A DNA stretch of 64,000 bases. Source: Thermoanaerobaculia bacterium. Its GTDB lineage: Bacteria; Acidobacteriota; Thermoanaerobaculia; Multivoradales; JAHZIX01. The notes beneath the pieces are model-generated. The model ran no database searches. It saw only the letters and a program-made list of their open reading frames with translations, and was not told where the DNA came from. This document shows, one piece after another, positions 55,764 through 63,144 of this stretch. Both the position numbers and the translations under genes were made by a program. Position 1 is the stretch's first letter, and every line of letters begins with the position of its first letter. Location: the NCBI GenBank assembly GCA_027069135.1, contig JALXFE010000134.1, forward strand, positions 1 to 64,000, written 5' to 3'.

Positions 55764-56669
55764 TTGATTCAGATTCCTTCGAAGCAGGCTCTTTCCCGTT
55801 GGACACCCACGGCCATGTTCGCCGCGGCTTTGGCGTTCGGAGCATCCGCCGGCTGGGGCCAAACCCCTTTGGGACCGGTTCAGGGGGGAACCTTTCAGGG
55901 CCTCCTGGAGCTCCCCGACGACGAGGTCCCGATGGCGTACGTGCCCGGATCTTTGGACCGTGCGGCGCGGCTGCAGCTACGGCTCAAAGCGGTGTACCAC
56001 CGCCTGGCGACCTGGATGAAGCTCGAGGAAGGCTTCAAGGTTCTGGTGCTTTCTCCTCGAGAATGGCAGGCTCTGGACGCGTCCCAGCCCTATGGCTTTC
56101 CCTTGCGAGTGGATCTTTCGACAGCAGCCGTCGCCGCCTGGGGGACGCCGGAAACGGTAGAGCTCTGGCGAGGAATACTGGGCTCTCTGCCGAAACCCGG
56201 CGGATTCTCCGCCCGAGGAAGCCGAGACGAGGTCGCGAGCCTCCTTCTGGCGGATGCCATCGTCGAGATGGAGCTTTGTCGGACCGTCGTCCATCGCCAA
56301 CAGCTGGCCGGGGGGCCGGAGGGTCTTTGGCTCAGCGATCTTCTGGGGCATATCGTCTGCGCTACAGCGGATCGACTGGTCGAAGAGCCCAATCCGACTC
56401 CCCTACTGCCTCTTCTTACCACCGCTGCGGCTTCCGGCGGAGGTGCGGGCATTCCGCCCGAGGCCTACGGCGACGAGCTCGACAGCGGTCGGTGGCTGGC
56501 CTACCAAGCCCACTTCGCCCGCGGTGCTCAGCTCGTTTGGGAGGAGGGCGGAAAGCGAGCGGTGCGCCGACTGATGAGGATGCGCCGACGCAAGGGCTCG
56601 CCGTTGGTATTCGAGGATCTCCTCGTCCCCTTTCCGAGTTTGAAGGCCTGGCGCGATTCCGGAGTTTGA
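55764..56669 (+). CDS. Secreted protein of unknown function
   Basis: The protein of about 301 aa has a signal peptide (MFAAALAFGASAGWGQ region, start LIQIPSKQALS). Its middle (LRLKAVYHRLATWMKLEEGFKVLVLSPREWQAL and PYGFPLRVD) resembles the early part of peptidase-MA-like domains, but the zinc HEXXH motif is absent (LLGHIVCATADRL lies at the expected place). It may be an inactive relative. TTG 55764 with GGAGA upstream is preferred; a longer frame from 55596 adds a low-complexity front. Confidence 0.55.
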   Translation: MIQIPSKQALSRWTPTAMFAAALAFGASAGWGQTPLGPVQGGTFQGLLELPDDEVPMAYVPGSLDRAARLQLRLKAVYHRLATWMKLEEGFKVLVLSPREWQALDASQPYGFPLRVDLSTAAVAAWGTPETVELWRGILGSLPKPGGFSARGSRDEVASLLLADAIVEMELCRTVVHRQQLAGGPEGLWLSDLLGHIVCATADRLVEEPNPTPLLPLLTTAAASGGGAGIPPEAYGDELDSGRWLAYQAHFARGAQLVWEEGGKRAVRRLMRMRRRKGSPLVFEDLLVPFPSLKAWRDSGV

Positions 56670-56734
56670 TTCTCTTCCCGGCTCTTGTCCCATCCGCGGG
56701 ACCTGGGGGCACCTTCTGAACACTGAGGTGGTGT

Positions 56735-56766
56735 TCGATTTTGGGATTTTCCATTCCCGAAATCGA
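56735..56766. promoter_or_regulatory. Likely enhancer site of the sigma-54 export operon
   Basis: TCGATTTTGGGA and TCCCGAAATCGA are 12-bp arms (one mismatch) with an 8-nt spacer. The centre is about 135 bp upstream of the sigma-54 promoter at 56877-56892, a usual distance for NtrC-family activators. The regulator gene with a Fis-type HTH lies in the same operon. Confidence 0.6.
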
Positions 56767-56876
56767 TCACCAAAGCGGCGCAACTCATGGGGTTTTCTTG
56801 CGTAGAGTCAGCCAGTAGAGAGCTCGGAGACGCCGGAACTCGGCACCCATTTGAAGATGGAATCGACACGGTCCTC

Positions 56877-56892
56877 TGGCATGGGTCTTGCC
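56877..56892 (+). promoter_or_regulatory. Sigma-54 promoter of the export operon
   Basis: TGGCATGGGTCTTGCC has the invariant GG (56878-56879) and GC (56890-56891) exactly 10 nt apart. It matches TGGCACG-N4-TTGCW except at two positions. Transcription would start near 56902, about 30 bp before the TTG start of the adaptor gene. Confidence 0.75.
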
Positions 56893-56933
56893 ATTGTTCA
56901 GATGGGTTCGTATTGGTTCATGGAGGAAGTACG

Positions 56934-58187
56934 TTGGACATACCGCGCGAAGGAATCGCAGAACAGAAGCGCCGGAAGCGCATTATTTACGGCGTCATAG
57001 CCGGCGTACTCTTGGTGGGCGCCTGGGTCGGTGTCTCGAGCCTGGAGCCCGCTGCCCGCTCCGTGGAGAAGTCTTCCTTATATATCGGTCGCGTCGAGCG
57101 CGGCGAGATGCTGCGGGCCGTACGGGGCCCCGGCACTCTGGTCCCGGAGGAGATTCGCTGGATCGGCGCCCTGACGGACGGTCGCGTCGAACGGATTCTC
57201 ATCAAAGCGGGTACCACCGTCGATCCCAGCAGCATCATCATGGAGCTTACCAATCCCACCGTGGAGCGGGCGGCTCAGGATGCAGAGTTGCAAGTCCGGG
57301 CAGGCCTTGCAGATTTGGACAATCTACGGATTCGTCTCGACAGCGATCTGCTCAACCAGCAAGCGGCGGCGGCGGCCATCGAGGCGGACCTCCGAGAGGC
57401 TGAGCTAGAGGCTGAGGCGAATGAAGAGCTGTCGAAAGACGGGCTCATTTCCGAGATCGAGTTGCGACGGTCCCAGATTCGTGCCAAGCAGCTGGAGAAT
57501 CGCCATGGCATCGAGCAGCAGCGGTTGTTGAAGGCCGAAGAATCTCGCGTGGCACAACTCGGAGCCCAACGAGCCCGGTTCCGGCAGGCAGAGGCTCTCT
57601 ATGAGCTGCGGCAGCGAGAGCTGGAATCCCTGAAAGTTCGGCCGAGTCTCAGCGGCGTGCTGCAGGAGGTCCCGGTCGAGGAGGGCCAGCAGGTCTCTCC
57701 GGGAACGAATCTGGCCCGTGTCGCCCGCCCGGATCTGCTCAAGGCGGAGCTGAGGATCGCGGAAACTCAAGCTCGGGATATTCAAGTAGGCCAGGTCGCG
57801 AGCATCGATACCCGCAACGGGGTGATTGAGGGGCGAGTGGTCCGCATCGATCCCGCCGCCCAGGATGGTACGGTGACCGTGGACGTCACCTTGGTCGGAG
57901 ATTTACCCAAGGGAGCACGCCCCCAGCAGAGTGTCGATGGAACGATCGAGTTAGAGCGCCTGGAGGACGTTCTCTACGTCAGTCGGCCGGCGTATGGCCA
58001 GCCCTTCAGCACCATCGGCCTGTTCAAGTTGGCCGCCGACGGAGCCGCCGCATCTCGGGTTCAAGTAGAGTTGGGGCGGGCGTCGGTGACGACCTTCGAG
58101 ATCATCCGTGGTCTGAATGAAGGGGACCAGGTAATCCTTTCGGACACGGCAAATTACGACAGCGAGGACCGATTGCGGCTGCGTTGA
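56934..58187 (+). CDS. Membrane-fusion (HlyD/RND-type) adaptor protein
   Basis: The 417-aa protein has one N-terminal TM helix (IIYGVIAGVLLVGAWVGV). A periplasmic lipoyl/barrel-sandwich domain is split around a long alpha-helical hairpin (about residues 110-215, AAAAAIEADLREAELEAEANEELSKDG). The lipoyl return segment is SGVLQEVPVEEGQQVSPGTNL, then the beta-barrel and membrane-proximal domains (VQVELGRASVTTFEIIRGLNEGDQVILS). This is the MacA-like layout that links an inner-membrane ABC pump to an outer-membrane channel. TTG 56934 with GGAGGA 7 nt upstream is chosen; the frame from 56787 overlaps the promoter. Confidence 0.9.
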   Translation: MDIPREGIAEQKRRKRIIYGVIAGVLLVGAWVGVSSLEPAARSVEKSSLYIGRVERGEMLRAVRGPGTLVPEEIRWIGALTDGRVERILIKAGTTVDPSSIIMELTNPTVERAAQDAELQVRAGLADLDNLRIRLDSDLLNQQAAAAAIEADLREAELEAEANEELSKDGLISEIELRRSQIRAKQLENRHGIEQQRLLKAEESRVAQLGAQRARFRQAEALYELRQRELESLKVRPSLSGVLQEVPVEEGQQVSPGTNLARVARPDLLKAELRIAETQARDIQVGQVASIDTRNGVIEGRVVRIDPAAQDGTVTVDVTLVGDLPKGARPQQSVDGTIELERLEDVLYVSRPAYGQPFSTIGLFKLAADGAAASRVQVELGRASVTTFEIIRGLNEGDQVILSDTANYDSEDRLRLR

Positions 58188-58374
58188 GTCGGCGCGCAGG
58201 AACCCAGGTTTTATGAAACCCAGATTCGATGAAACATCGTGCGGTGCTGGAGCGTCCTCTTTTCTAGAGCCATCTCTAAAGAGCTCTCCGAGAAAAAGCC
58301 GTATCAGGTCGAAATACCAGGGACGAGAAGTCTAGAACATTTTGGGCCTGCGGCCCAACGGAAAGGAGAAGTCG

Positions 58375-59079
58375 ATGAGCGAATCCGCTCAAGCCCTCAT
58401 TCACCTAGAAGGCGTCAAGAAAGTCTTCCTTACGGACGAGGTGGAGACCCACGCGCTATCCGGCATCCATATGAACATCGAAAAGGGTGAGTACGTCTCC
58501 ATCGCCGGGCCCTCCGGCTGTGGAAAGTCCACGCTGCTGTCGATTCTCGGATTGCTCGATACGCCGAGCGACGGTACCTATGTCCTCAACGGCCAAAGTG
58601 TCGCCAATATCGGTTTGGCCCAGCGGGCGCGGATCCGGAATCGCGAGATCGGTTTCATCTTCCAGGCGTTCAACCTGATCGGGGACCTTACGGTTTACGA
58701 GAATGTGGAGCTTCCGCTGACCTACCGGGGAATGCCCTCCGCGGAGCGCAAGAAGCGGGTTCAGGCCGCCTTGGAGCGGGTCGGAATGGCCCACCGCATG
58801 AAGCATTATCCTTCGCAGCTTTCCGGTGGTCAGCAGCAGCGCGTGGCGGTGGCTCGAGCCGTCGTCGGTGATCCGGCGATCCTGCTCGCGGACGAACCCA
58901 CCGGTAACCTCGACTCGACCAACGGCGAAGCGGTGATGGATCTTCTCAAAGAGCTCCACAACGCGGGCTCTACCATCTGCATGGTGACCCATGACCAGCG
59001 CTACGCGGATTATGCTTCCCGGACGGTAAACCTCTTCGACGGACGCATCGTCGACGAGGACAACGCCGAGGTAGCTTGA
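58375..59079 (+). CDS. MacB/LolD-type ABC transporter ATPase 1
   Basis: The 234-aa ATPase has Walker A GPSGCGKST, Q-loop FIFQAFNLIGDLTVYENVELPL, signature LSGGQQQRVAVARAVV, Walker B ILLADEPTGNLDS and H-loop CMVTHDQRY. The LADEPTGNLD block and the RIRNREIGFIFQ pattern mark the MacB/LolD/FtsE group, which works with MacB- or FtsX-like permeases. ATG 58375 has AAAGGAG upstream. A 188-bp gap with a 16-bp imperfect direct repeat (58201-58232) separates it from the adaptor gene. No permease lies nearby. Confidence 0.94.
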   Translation: MSESAQALIHLEGVKKVFLTDEVETHALSGIHMNIEKGEYVSIAGPSGCGKSTLLSILGLLDTPSDGTYVLNGQSVANIGLAQRARIRNREIGFIFQAFNLIGDLTVYENVELPLTYRGMPSAERKKRVQAALERVGMAHRMKHYPSQLSGGQQQRVAVARAVVGDPAILLADEPTGNLDSTNGEAVMDLLKELHNAGSTICMVTHDQRYADYASRTVNLFDGRIVDEDNAEVA

Positions 59080-59083
59080 AGCC

Positions 59084-59758
59084 TTGGAACCGCTGATTCG
59101 GCTGCGCAATCTCGAGCGCTTCTACGAGAACCCCCACGGTCGGACCTACGTGCTTCGGCGGATCAATCTCGAGGTCCAACCGGGGGAGTTTGTCTCGGCC
59201 ATGGGGCCCTCCGGAGCCGGAAAATCAACGCTGCTCCATATTCTGGGAATGTTGGACGGGGGGTGGCAGGGAGAGTATTTTCTCGATGGCCATCCCGTTC
59301 ACGACCTCAATCGCAAGCGACGAAACGCTCTCCACAAGGAGTTCATCGGCTTCGTCTTCCAGAGCTACCATCTGCTCGACGACCTGACGGTCTACGAGAA
59401 CTTGGACCTGCCGCTCTCCTACAAAGGAATCAAGCGCAAGGAGCGGGAGAGCATGGTGTGTGACACCCTGGACCGTTTCAATATCGTCGGCAAGCGGGAT
59501 CTCTTTCCGAATCAGCTCTCCGGTGGACAGCAGCAATTGGTGGCCGTCGCGCGGGCGGTGATCACCAATCCTCGTTTGATCCTTGCCGATGAGCCGACGG
59601 GCAATCTCCACACCAGCCAGGGGCAGGAGATCATGGAGCTTTTCCAGAGGCTGAATGCCGAAGGCACAACGATTCTCCAGGTCACGCACTCGGAGGCCAA
59701 CGCAGCTTTCGGGAACCGGGTCATCAACCTCCTCGACGGCTGGATCGTTGACGATTAG
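59084..59758 (+). CDS. MacB/LolD-type ABC transporter ATPase 2
   Basis: The 224-aa ATPase is a diverged sister of the preceding one: Walker A GPSGAGKST, Q-loop FVFQSYHLLDDLTVYENLDLPLSY, signature LSGGQQQLVAVARAV (Leu for Arg after QQQ), Walker B LILADEPTGNLHT and H-loop TILQVTHSEA. The change D to H after GNL and R to L in the signature may alter its activity, so it may be a weaker partner in a heterodimer. TTG 59084 begins 4 bp after ATPase 1. Confidence 0.92.
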   Translation: MEPLIRLRNLERFYENPHGRTYVLRRINLEVQPGEFVSAMGPSGAGKSTLLHILGMLDGGWQGEYFLDGHPVHDLNRKRRNALHKEFIGFVFQSYHLLDDLTVYENLDLPLSYKGIKRKERESMVCDTLDRFNIVGKRDLFPNQLSGGQQQLVAVARAVITNPRLILADEPTGNLHTSQGQEIMELFQRLNAEGTTILQVTHSEANAAFGNRVINLLDGWIVDD

Positions 59759-59788
59759 GCCGTGCCGGATCGTTCGAGGTCTGGAGGA

Positions 59789-61147
59789 ATGAAGCTGCCG
59801 CGGGTACTGGTCGCCGACGACCAACGCGATGTCCTCGAAGCCTTACGCATGTTGCTCAAGAGTGAGGGCTTCGAGGCTCGTTGCGCCACCTCCCCGGCGG
59901 AGGTCTTAGAGAACATCAAGACCTCCGAGTTCGATGTCCTTCTCATGGATCTCAACTACGCCCGAGACACCACCTCCGGCCAGGAGGGGCTCGAGCTCCT
60001 GGATCGCGTCCGCCAATTGGACTCGGATCTGCCGGTCGTCGTGATGACCGCTTGGGGGAGTGTCGAGGTGGCCGTGGAAGCGATGCGCAAAGGCGCGCGG
60101 GACTTCGTCGAAAAGCCCTGGGACAACAACCGCCTCCTCGCCATTCTGCGGACTCAGATGGCGTTGCGGCGGGCCCTCCGGAGAGGCCGGATCCTGGAGG
60201 CGGAGAACGAGGTCCTGCGGGGGGATGGCACCGTCCGGCTGATCGCTGCATCGCAGGCCATGGCACCGGTCTTGGAGCTCATCGAGCGGGTTGGACCCTC
60301 CGACGCGAATATCCTGATCACCGGGGAGAACGGTACTGGAAAGGGTGTGGTCGCGCGGGCTCTCCACGCGGCCTCCGGTCGATCCGGACATCCGATGGTC
60401 TCGGTCAATGCCGGTGCCCTTTCCGAAGGGGTCTTCGAGAGCGAGCTCTTCGGCCATGTGAGAGGCGCTTTTACGGACGCCAAACAGGACCGCGTCGGCC
60501 GATTCGAAATGGCCGATGGGGGCATTCTCTTCTTGGACGAGATCGCCAACGTGCCGATGGCCCAACAGGCCAAGCTCCTGCGGGTTCTGGAGACCGGCGA
60601 TTTCGAACGCTTGGGCTCCTCCCGAACTCGACAGGTGGATGTGCGGGTCTTCTCTGCCACCAACGCGGACCTGGAGAAGGCCGTGGCCGAAGGACAGTTC
60701 CGGCAGGATCTCCTCTACCGTCTCAACACCATCGAGATTCGCCTTCCCCCCTTGCGCGAGAGGGGGGAGGATATCGGGCTCCTGGCCGAGCTCTTTCTTG
60801 GCCGGCACGCTCAGCATTATCGCCGCCCGGGGTGCCCCTTCAGCGATGATGCCCGTCGCGCGCTTCTCGGCCATGATTGGCCGGGAAACGTTCGCGAGCT
60901 GGATCATGCCGTCGAGCGGGCCGTCCTCATGTGCCGCGGTGACGAGATCGCCGCCGCTGACCTGGGGCTGGCAGGAAAAGGCGACGGAGCCTTGCCCTCC
61001 CTGGCGGATTTGACCCTGGAAGAAGTGGAGCAGCTCCTCATCGAGAAGGCCTTGAAACGAAGCCACGGCAACGTGAAACAGGCTGCCGAAGCCCTGGGGC
61101 TGTCCCGTAGCGCCCTCTACCGCCGCCTCGAGCGGTATGGGTTGTAG
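59789..61147 (+). CDS. NtrC-family sigma-54 activator with GAFTDA loop
   Basis: The 452-aa protein has a receiver (VLVADDQRDVLEALRMLLK, phospho-Asp in FDVLLMDLNYARDT). The AAA+ domain has Walker A GENGTGKG, Walker B GGILFLDEIAN and an R-finger region. A Fis HTH closes it (KRSHGNVKQAAEALGLSRSALYRRLERYGL). The sigma-54 contact loop reads GAFTDA instead of GAFTGA. Variants at this position exist in functional members of some phyla, so it may still activate. ATG 59789 is chosen over GTG 59762 for the ribosome site. It probably binds the inverted repeat at 56735-56766 and drives its own operon. Confidence 0.92.
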   Translation: MKLPRVLVADDQRDVLEALRMLLKSEGFEARCATSPAEVLENIKTSEFDVLLMDLNYARDTTSGQEGLELLDRVRQLDSDLPVVVMTAWGSVEVAVEAMRKGARDFVEKPWDNNRLLAILRTQMALRRALRRGRILEAENEVLRGDGTVRLIAASQAMAPVLELIERVGPSDANILITGENGTGKGVVARALHAASGRSGHPMVSVNAGALSEGVFESELFGHVRGAFTDAKQDRVGRFEMADGGILFLDEIANVPMAQQAKLLRVLETGDFERLGSSRTRQVDVRVFSATNADLEKAVAEGQFRQDLLYRLNTIEIRLPPLRERGEDIGLLAELFLGRHAQHYRRPGCPFSDDARRALLGHDWPGNVRELDHAVERAVLMCRGDEIAAADLGLAGKGDGALPSLADLTLEEVEQLLIEKALKRSHGNVKQAAEALGLSRSALYRRLERYGL

Positions 61148-61177
61148 GGGCGAGGTCGATTCATACCGGGCATGAAT

Positions 61178-61281
61178 GCTCGGGCTGGTTCCGAGCCCGG
61201 CTGAAGCCGGGCGATCTTTGAAAACATCGGCTCTGGCCGCCTTTAGGCGGGCTCGTAACCAGTCCGGGGTTTCAACCCCGG
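61178..61281. repeat. Cluster of four short hairpins between regulator and kinase genes
   Basis: The gap of 152 bp holds four palindromes in a row: GCTCGG/CCGAGC (61178-61196), CCCGGCTGAAGCCGGG (61196-61211), CCGCCTTTAGGCGG (61237-61250) and CCGGGGTTTCAACCCCGG (61264-61281). This looks like a dispersed REP/BOX-type repeat unit. It may shield or process the mRNA between the two coding regions. Confidence 0.6.
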
Positions 61282-61299
61282 GCGCTCTTCGGAGGTCCC

Positions 61300-62637
61300 G
61301 TGCGACGTTCCCTCGACCACGACCAGAAAGTCCTAGGCCTGGCCTTGCTCGGCGGGTTGCCGGCGGTGGTGGTGTCGATGGTGATGCTCTGGGGCGGGGA
61401 ATACGAGCCCAAAGTCCAATGGACCCTGACGCTTCTGATCATTTTGACCTGGTGGGGGCTCGCTGTGGTGCTGCGTCACCGGGTGGTCTATCCCCTCCAG
61501 ACTGTGGCGAACCTCCTAGAGGCGCTGCGGGAAGGGGATTACTCTTTGCGGGGTCGCCACGCCTCGGAGGAGGACGCCCTGGGCCAAGTCATCTTGGAGG
61601 TCAACACTCTGGGTTCTACGCTCTACCAGCAGCGTATTGATGCGGTCGAAGCCACGGCGCTCCTGGCCACCGTGATCGAGGAGATCGACAGCGCACTTTT
61701 CGCCTTCGACAGCGAGGGCCTTCTGCGGTTGGTGAATCGGGCCGGCGAGAGGATCCTGGCCCAGCCTGCCGATCGACTGCTCCAGCGCAGCGCCATAGAT
61801 CTCGGCCTGGAGGATTGGTTAGAAGGCGACCTTGAGCGCACGGTACAGCGGACCTTTCCCGGAGGCGCGGGCCGATGGGCGGTGCGCCGTAGCACTTTCC
61901 GCCTCGACGCCCGGCAGCATCATCTCTTGGTGATCACAGACTTGAGCCTCGCGCTGCGGGAAGAGGAACGTCAGGCCTGGCGGCGCCTCATCCGAGTCTT
62001 AGGTCACGAGCTCAACAACTCTCTGACCCCCATCCAAAGCACCGCGGACACCCTACAAGCTCTTCTCCGGCGAGATCCTCAGCCGGTGGATTTGGAAGAA
62101 GACTTGGGCCGTGGCCTCCAGCTCATCGGTTCCCGGGCCCGCTCCCTGGGGCGATTCATCGGCGGCTATTCCAAGCTGGCTCGCCTGCCCCGGCCGGATT
62201 TGGAGCCCATCTCCGTGAGCCGTTGGGTGCATCGCGCGGCCCGCGTCGAGACCCGCGTTCCCGTCGAAGTCACCCCCGGCCCCGACGTCACCCACGAGGC
62301 GGATCCGGACCAGCTAGAGCAAGTCCTGATCAACCTTCTAAGAAACGCCGCCGACGCGACCCTCGAAACCGGCGGCGGCGTGCGCGTTGCCTGGCAAGCC
62401 CACGGCGACGGCGTCGAAATCACCGTCGAAGACGACGGCCCCGGCCTCGCCCGCACCGACAACCTCTTCGTCCCCTTCTTCTCCACCAAACCCGGCGGCA
62501 GCGGCATCGGCCTCGTCCTCTCCCTACAAATCGCCGAAGCCCACGGCGGCACCCTCACCCTGGAAAACCGCCCCGATTCCCAAGGCTGCATCGCACGGCT
62601 ATGGCTCCCGAGTCTCGCGGAGGCTTTACCGCTGTAG
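61300..62637 (+). CDS. Membrane histidine kinase of the sigma-54 export module
   Basis: The 445-aa kinase has two TM helices near residues 12-58 with little periplasmic loop, then a HAMP-like region (PLQTVANLLEALREGDYSLRGR). A PAS domain (TVIEEIDSALFAFDSEGLLRLVN), HisKA-like region with RVLGHELNNSLTPIQS and HATPase motifs (NLLRNAADATLE, EDDGPGL, GGSGIGLVLS) follow. The short extracytoplasmic part suggests sensing of a membrane or cytoplasmic cue. GTG 61300 starts after the hairpin cluster. The likely partner is the activator directly upstream. Confidence 0.92.
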   Translation: MRRSLDHDQKVLGLALLGGLPAVVVSMVMLWGGEYEPKVQWTLTLLIILTWWGLAVVLRHRVVYPLQTVANLLEALREGDYSLRGRHASEEDALGQVILEVNTLGSTLYQQRIDAVEATALLATVIEEIDSALFAFDSEGLLRLVNRAGERILAQPADRLLQRSAIDLGLEDWLEGDLERTVQRTFPGGAGRWAVRRSTFRLDARQHHLLVITDLSLALREEERQAWRRLIRVLGHELNNSLTPIQSTADTLQALLRRDPQPVDLEEDLGRGLQLIGSRARSLGRFIGGYSKLARLPRPDLEPISVSRWVHRAARVETRVPVEVTPGPDVTHEADPDQLEQVLINLLRNAADATLETGGGVRVAWQAHGDGVEITVEDDGPGLARTDNLFVPFFSTKPGGSGIGLVLSLQIAEAHGGTLTLENRPDSQGCIARLWLPSLAEALPL

Positions 62638-62688: not shown

Positions 62689-63144
62689 ATGACAAAAACA
62701 GGTGAGCGTTCTTGGTGGCAGAGTCCTTGGACTTGCGGGATTGGTGGTTGCTGTTTGGGCTGCATCGTGCTTCCCGTAGCCATGGTGGCGATCTTGGGGG
62801 GCGGTGCCTTCGTCTTGGCGAAGAGCGCCGATGTCTACCAGGATGCGGTGGCCATGGTGAAGGAGGACCCTCGGGCGATCGAGCTCTTGGGGGAACCGAT
62901 CGAGACCGGTTGGCAGTTCCGTGGCAATATCACTACCGGTGATCAAGGGGGAGAGGCCGAGTTCACGGTGCCGGTCTCGGGCCCTAAGGGCTCCGGGGAG
63001 CTCGAGGTCGAGGCGGAGAAGGTCGATGGCGAATGGAAGTACGAGCGGATCCGGATCTATCCGGACGACGGGGGGCTTCCCCTGGACCTTGTGGGCGACT
63101 CCCAGGTTCTGGAGGAGCCGTCGGATCCCGCAGTCTCTTTCTGA
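62689..63144 (+). CDS. Coa1-like membrane protein
   Basis: The 151-aa protein has a Cys-rich TM region (CGIGGCCLGCIVLPVAMVAIL) and a C-terminal domain with LLGEPIETGWQFRGNITTGDQGGEAEFTVPVSGPKGSGELEVEAEKVDGEWKYERIRI. That pattern matches the Coa1/Tim21-like family of cytochrome oxidase assembly proteins. The family acts in copper-heme oxidase assembly in mitochondria, but bacterial members lack a proven role. ATG 62689 follows a divergence-free gap of 51 bp after the kinase. Confidence 0.7.
   Translation: MTKTGERSWWQSPWTCGIGGCCLGCIVLPVAMVAILGGGAFVLAKSADVYQDAVAMVKEDPRAIELLGEPIETGWQFRGNITTGDQGGEAEFTVPVSGPKGSGELEVEAEKVDGEWKYERIRIYPDDGGLPLDLVGDSQVLEEPSDPAVSF

Follow-up and report, generated by a model that had tools for sequence, protein, structure and literature searches.

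Whether an exporter can carry its own sigma-54 switch, with promoter, enhancer and activator held in one transcription unit, is the question raised by an operon of a Thermoanaerobaculia bacterium (GCA_027069135.1, contig JALXFE010000134.1), which we examined within positions 1-64,000 of the forward strand, the whole stretch analysed and hereafter called the window. Through comparison of the locus with its relatives, we read the control region as a cis-acting, self-contained sigma-54 switch that would place the operon under positive feedback, and assign this reading a probability of about 0.83.

The supposed operon lies on the forward strand and opens with an adaptor gene (56934..58187) whose domain matches indicate a periplasmic membrane-fusion protein of the RND_mfp/HlyD_D23 type. 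Read from the TTG start at 56934, the protein aligns with its orthologues from the first residue on, and this start is preceded by a probable ribosome-binding site, GGAGG (56922..56926, forward strand). Two stand-alone MacB/LolD/DarD-like ABC ATPases, identified by domain matches, follow: ATPase 1 (58375..59079, 234 aa), which has no fused permease, and ATPase 2 (59084..59758, 224 aa). The preliminary description had stated that the operon encodes its own NtrC-family activator and a kinase, and the domain matches confirm both. The response regulator (59762..61147, with an alternative start at the in-frame ATG at 59789) is NtrC-type and combines a receiver, a Sigma54_activat domain with a GAFTDA loop and a Fis-type HTH (HTH_8), and the histidine kinase (61300..62637) has two predicted membrane helices, HisKA and HATPase_c. 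A domain scan of the operon genes revealed no permease among them. As gaps of 187 bp (adaptor to ATPase 1) and 152 bp (regulator to kinase) lie within the supposed operon, read-through is assumed.

Further features were observed in and around this gene run. A perfect 7-bp hairpin, TTGGGCC-TGC-GGCCCAA (58342-58358), lies in the 187-bp gap directly 5' of the ribosome-binding site of ATPase 1 and might be a translation control or processing site. The regulator-kinase gap (61148-61299) is 152 bp long in the window and 67 bp in the closest relative, L131 (JAHZIX010000029.1, G001), contains three short palindromes and is possibly a small inserted repeat element. The upstream gene (55767-56669) occupies the same position in the same-family relatives L131, L112 and L115 (43-48% identity) and had no Pfam or NCBIfam match. 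Directly 3' of the kinase gene, positions 62689-63144 encode a small membrane protein with a Coa1/TIM21-like domain, which was not found there in L131. The record of L131 is titled 'Deltaproteobacteria' though it is placed with the window genome in one genus; the order-level relatives carry the titles Acidobacteria or Thermoanaerobaculia, and the L131 title looks outdated or mistaken.

Both sites proposed for the control region are present where they had been placed. The inverted repeat consists of TCGATTTTGGGA (56735-56746) and TCCCGAAATCGA (56755-56766) with 11 of 12 positions paired, and is longer than first noted, with 18-nt arms (56729-56746 and 56755-56772) paired at 16 of 18 positions across an 8-nt gap. 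We annotate it, on the basis of this pairing and of its conservation, as a putative upstream activating sequence or enhancer, TGGTGTTCGATTTTGGGA-N8-TCCCGAAATCGATCACCA (56729..56772, no strand), with the conserved core CGATTTTGGGA-N8-TCCCGAAATCG at 56736-56765; the 12-bp arms first described (56735-56766) correspond almost exactly to the part that evolution has conserved. The GG-N10-GC site is TGGCATGGGTCTTGCC (56877-56892, forward strand), a predicted sigma-54 (-24/-12) promoter whose geometry is matched in relatives and which carries the TGGCAC-N5-TTGC core with GG and GC 10 bp apart. The distance of about 135 bp between repeat and promoter also holds, with 134 bp from the start of the GGGA in the palindrome to the first T of TGG. 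The adaptor start at TTG 56934 follows 42 bp after the end of the promoter, and transcription would start near 56903. RpoN itself is encoded in the genome (PF04552 at C616, E 1.7e-65).

The promoter consensus alone is weak evidence and no more than chance, since TGGCAY-N5-TTGC gave 35 matches in the window's genome and 23 for the reversed control; an extra control, the N6-spaced pattern, gave 12. The full module (GGGA-N8-TCCC with a promoter at 107-137 bp) matched once in the 7.17 Mb genome, in the window, and with the promoter at 77-106 bp it was absent from the same 7.17 Mb. Own-genome regulon prediction by such pattern searches found no further member with the strict module in the window's genome.

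Chance is ruled out by the conservation of the module in relatives. The preliminary description had suggested looking for the repeat and promoter ahead of orthologous adaptor genes in related genomes, and there they recur with their sequence, order and phased spacing conserved in Acidobacteriota, Verrucomicrobiota and one Latescibacterota genome. The lack of conservation that it had named as a refuting outcome was not observed. An adaptor match was obtained in 60 of 148 related genomes, and a scan of GTDB genomes yielded 80 named loci, one in Latescibacterota and the others in Acidobacteriota and in Verrucomicrobiota (Opitutales, Chthoniobacterales). The strict module was defined as CR-N4-YGGGA-N8-TCCCR-N4-YG followed 78-149 bp downstream by a GG-N10-GC promoter, and by this definition 67 of the 94 orthologous loci have it upstream of the adaptor. 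In Chthoniobacterales and related Verrucomicrobia it precedes the start of the adaptor alignment by 460-500 bp, and about a quarter of the orthologous loci, mostly Acidobacteriota with rearranged or truncated contexts, have no strict module. A second module precedes a separately placed regulator-kinase operon in 24 Verrucomicrobiota loci. Elsewhere, only about five modules were found in 2.64 Mb on both strands. One of these five, which is probably real, is in L195, where it precedes the adaptor by about 6.5 kb and a pair of ADOP permease genes by about 190 bp, an arrangement that suggests direct control of ADOP genes by the regulator in some Acidobacteriota.

The anatomy of the site could be read from 89 sites, whose palindrome consensus is CR-N4-YGGGA-N8-TCCCR-N4-YG, a form conserved in 91 modules. 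The promoter consensus from 91 sites is TGGCACG-N4-TTGCAA, and in most loci the promoter lies about 30-65 bp before the adaptor start, further upstream in some. A third half-site, TCCCR, occurs at -10..-6 of the palindrome in 73 of the 89 sites, including all 24 regulator promoters, and could serve as a second dimer site or a site of hexamer nucleation. In the window palindrome the core and the outer CR/YG contacts on both sides are present, and the third half-site is degenerate. We rejected a 22-bp tandem array of which the palindrome would form one half, as the partner GGGA of the third half-site is present at -22 in just 5 of the 89 sites.

The Y/R positions that flank the invariant GGGA/TCCC show no covariation across the 89 sites, and pairing at the outer arm positions is no commoner than independence predicts. 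As the arms do not covary, the palindrome is a protein-binding DNA element rather than an RNA stem, judged from these alignments. That the repeat is instead an RNA hairpin unrelated to the activator, either a terminator of the upstream gene or a leader structure, is very improbable and largely refuted, for although it begins 60 bp after the upstream gene stop (56669) and 16 of its 18 positions can pair, it is followed by no T-run, is absent from the terminator scan, had no match as RNA in an Rfam scan, shows no excess of pairing, keeps its spacing to the sigma-54 site and also precedes regulator operons.

The spacing between palindrome and promoter varies in steps. The distances from GGGA to TGG are 78, 90, 95, 99-104 (most loci), 111-115, 124, 134-135 and 146-149 bp, and they cluster near 78, 90, 102, 113, 124, 135 and 147 bp with a period of about 11.4 bp between cluster centres, not 10.5 bp. 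Without the single 95-bp outlier the mean vector length is 0.96 (p ~0.0004), and with it 0.72 (p ~0.045), both p-values being merely indicative because the loci are related. Jumps by a helix turn are expected if looping brings an activator bound on one face of the DNA into contact with the polymerase. The 134 bp of the window is about three turns above the commonest spacing (~102 bp).

We then consider which activator occupies this site. The operon's regulator carries PF00072, PF00158 and PF02954, all above cut-off, and is thereby an NtrC-type enhancer-binding protein (EBP), and the EBP domains and the HTH are conserved in regulators across phyla. Its sigma-54 contact loop is GAFTDA, in place of the canonical GAFTGA, in every orthologue where the loop was read. 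GAFTDA also occurs in DVU2106, an EBP with assigned targets, and is among the motif variants thought to keep activity (PMC4641369), so the loop is not the canonical form, yet its deviation is no defining absence. Three lines give strong indirect support to the binding of the palindrome by the operon's own regulator. The regulator is linked to the operon in more than one gene order, lying downstream in the same gene run in the window and in the family relatives L131 and L112. Where the regulator and kinase genes have moved into an operon of their own, as in the 24 loci, a copy of this site and promoter precedes them. Also, the recognition-helix region of the regulator, GLSRSA[LF]YRRL, has been conserved across phyla together with the palindrome. 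The activator site lies upstream of the activator's own putative transcription unit in the window, L131, L112 and the 24 separate regulator operons. Another of the about 30 sigma-54 activators of the genome could bind the palindrome instead, in which case there would be no feedback loop, and the many NtrC-type paralogues in this genome and those orthologous loci that have no regulator gene nearby speak for it. We regard this as improbable, as the operon's regulator is the EBP that is repeatedly linked, its own promoter has the same site in the 24 Verrucomicrobiota loci, and its orthologues are 61-72% identical across phyla as against ~41% for the best paralogue in its own genome.

With the operon's own regulator as the binding protein, the switch would most likely operate in the following manner. 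The kinase, whose membrane helices are joined by about 9 residues in the window and similarly in orthologues where both helices were resolved, has so short a loop that it has no periplasmic sensor domain. Once stimulated, it would phosphorylate the neighbouring NtrC-type regulator, whose dimers, assembling into a hexamer, would bind the palindrome at 56729-56772. Looping of the helically phased ~134 bp of DNA would bring the regulator to RpoN-polymerase held at TGGCATGGGTCTTGCC, and hydrolysis of ATP by the regulator would open the promoter, giving the sigma-54 open complex. The whole operon, i.e. adaptor, two ATPases, regulator and kinase, would then be made. As its transcript would include the activator gene, the activator would raise its own level, which amounts to positive feedback.

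The partner of the two ATPases appears to lie outside the operon. Like MacAB-TolC, the operon has a MacA-like adaptor and a MacB-like ATPase domain, but its ATPases are not fused to a permease as in MacB, and the partner permeases in relatives are ADOPs, which are internally duplicated. ADOP permeases (TIGR03434) form large families that are named as orphans without ATPases in the family entry, and to our knowledge no ATPase has been assigned to them. They adjoin ATPase 1 and the adaptor in 51 of 74 orthologous loci, either immediately following ATPase 1 or lying between it and the adaptor, and six adjoining permeases that were scanned scored 649-921 bits against the 622-bit cut-off of the family. 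Across the 148 genomes, 59 have both the adaptor and an ADOP-like permease, 4 only an ADOP, 1 only the adaptor and 84 neither. An ADOP is thus present in 59 of 60 adaptor-bearing genomes as against 4 of 88 without the adaptor, and the adaptor in 59 of 63 ADOP-bearing genomes as against 1 of 85 others (Fisher p 3e-35, without correction for phylogeny; no more than about six ADOP candidates were scored in any genome).

The window's genome itself encodes about 20 ADOP-sized duplicated permeases, all unlinked to the window operon, in keeping with their naming as orphans. The only ADOP-bearing contig that also has a MacB/LolD-type ATPase is C342 (two ADOPs), where the ATPase is more than 15 kb away. 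With two ATPases but no permease in the operon and about 20 ADOPs elsewhere, the operon may be a shared engine, and we hypothesize that it supplies ATPase and adaptor to these unlinked permeases. Its exporter parts would most likely power ADOP-type permeases encoded elsewhere in the genome. No palindrome-promoter module was found before the ADOP genes of the window's genome, and their co-regulation by the window switch is unsupported in this genome. Two unlinked ADOP genes, on contigs C190 (13893-13907, minus strand) and C527 (L254), have sigma-54-like sites without the palindrome, 41 and 61 bp upstream of where each gene is predicted to start, and are perhaps controlled by other activators.

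A different partner has also been weighed: the ATPases and adaptor might serve a dedicated non-ADOP permease elsewhere, the ADOP association being a by-product of shared phylogeny. The window operon has no permease, the co-occurrence tests ignore relatedness and 23 of the 74 loci have no adjacent ADOP, all of which would fit. However, the 51 loci in which ADOPs adjoin ATPase 1 come from Verrucomicrobiota, Acidobacteriota and Latescibacterota, of the four ADOP genomes in which no adaptor matched three are incomplete (70-88%), and the sole adaptor-positive genome without an ADOP has a weak adaptor match; we consider a dedicated non-ADOP permease unlikely. For the ADOP partnership, its fullest form, in which a sigma-54-switched adaptor with one or two ATPases energises some 20 unlinked ADOPs while the kinase reads the load on this engine, as the Gram-negative, sigma-54 equivalent of flux sensing in Bce modules, is proposed tentatively and at clearly less than even odds.

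The Bce modules invoked here, which act on antimicrobial peptides, have kinases without a periplasmic sensor domain that are activated by the transporter itself (PMC10314905). The window operon resembles the BceRS-BceAB type in uniting an exporter of the FtsX/MacB superfamily with its regulator in one module whose feedback raises the transporter (PMC10314905), and neither the window kinase nor the resolved orthologues have an extracytoplasmic sensor domain. Its kinase may possibly sense load through activation by the transporter, by analogy with these modules. In contrast, its regulator is NtrC-type with sigma-54 and not OmpR-type, and it has an adaptor with two separate ATPases and no BceB-like permease. 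The window operon thus works like a Bce module at most and is not a member.

The control logic is of a known kind, that of NtrC-type autoregulated sigma-54 operons. Systems of the ZraSR and AtoSC type and the EBP regulons of D. vulgaris share with it the receiver-AAA+-Fis activator, the kinase and a palindromic activating site about 100 bp upstream of the -24/-12 promoter, and autoregulated EBP operons with conserved inverted repeats have been described in D. vulgaris (PMC4641369). Compared with these, the window family places activator, kinase and exporter parts under one predicted promoter, and the window has a site that is single in its genome, the GAFTDA loop and a regulon that is an ADOP-type exporter. 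Control of the bacterial exterior by sigma-54 is already an established theme (PMC3162934), and the text of that paper makes no mention of Acidobacteria, Verrucomicrobia, MacB or ABC transporters. Our literature search, partial in its coverage, found no paper linking ADOP to sigma-54 or to an ATPase. Within the reach of that search, three things are new: a module that recurs across phyla with phased spacing, its dedication to a single exporter in this genome, and the link between the exporter and ADOPs.

These findings provide an enhancer-promoter code, shared across phyla and phased in its spacing, for bacteria in which transcription has scarcely been studied, and a ready consensus by which such switches can be found by sequence. 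They also make the ADOP puzzle testable, as the missing ATPase and adaptor now have a concrete candidate in this conserved operon, whose regulator would show when they are needed.
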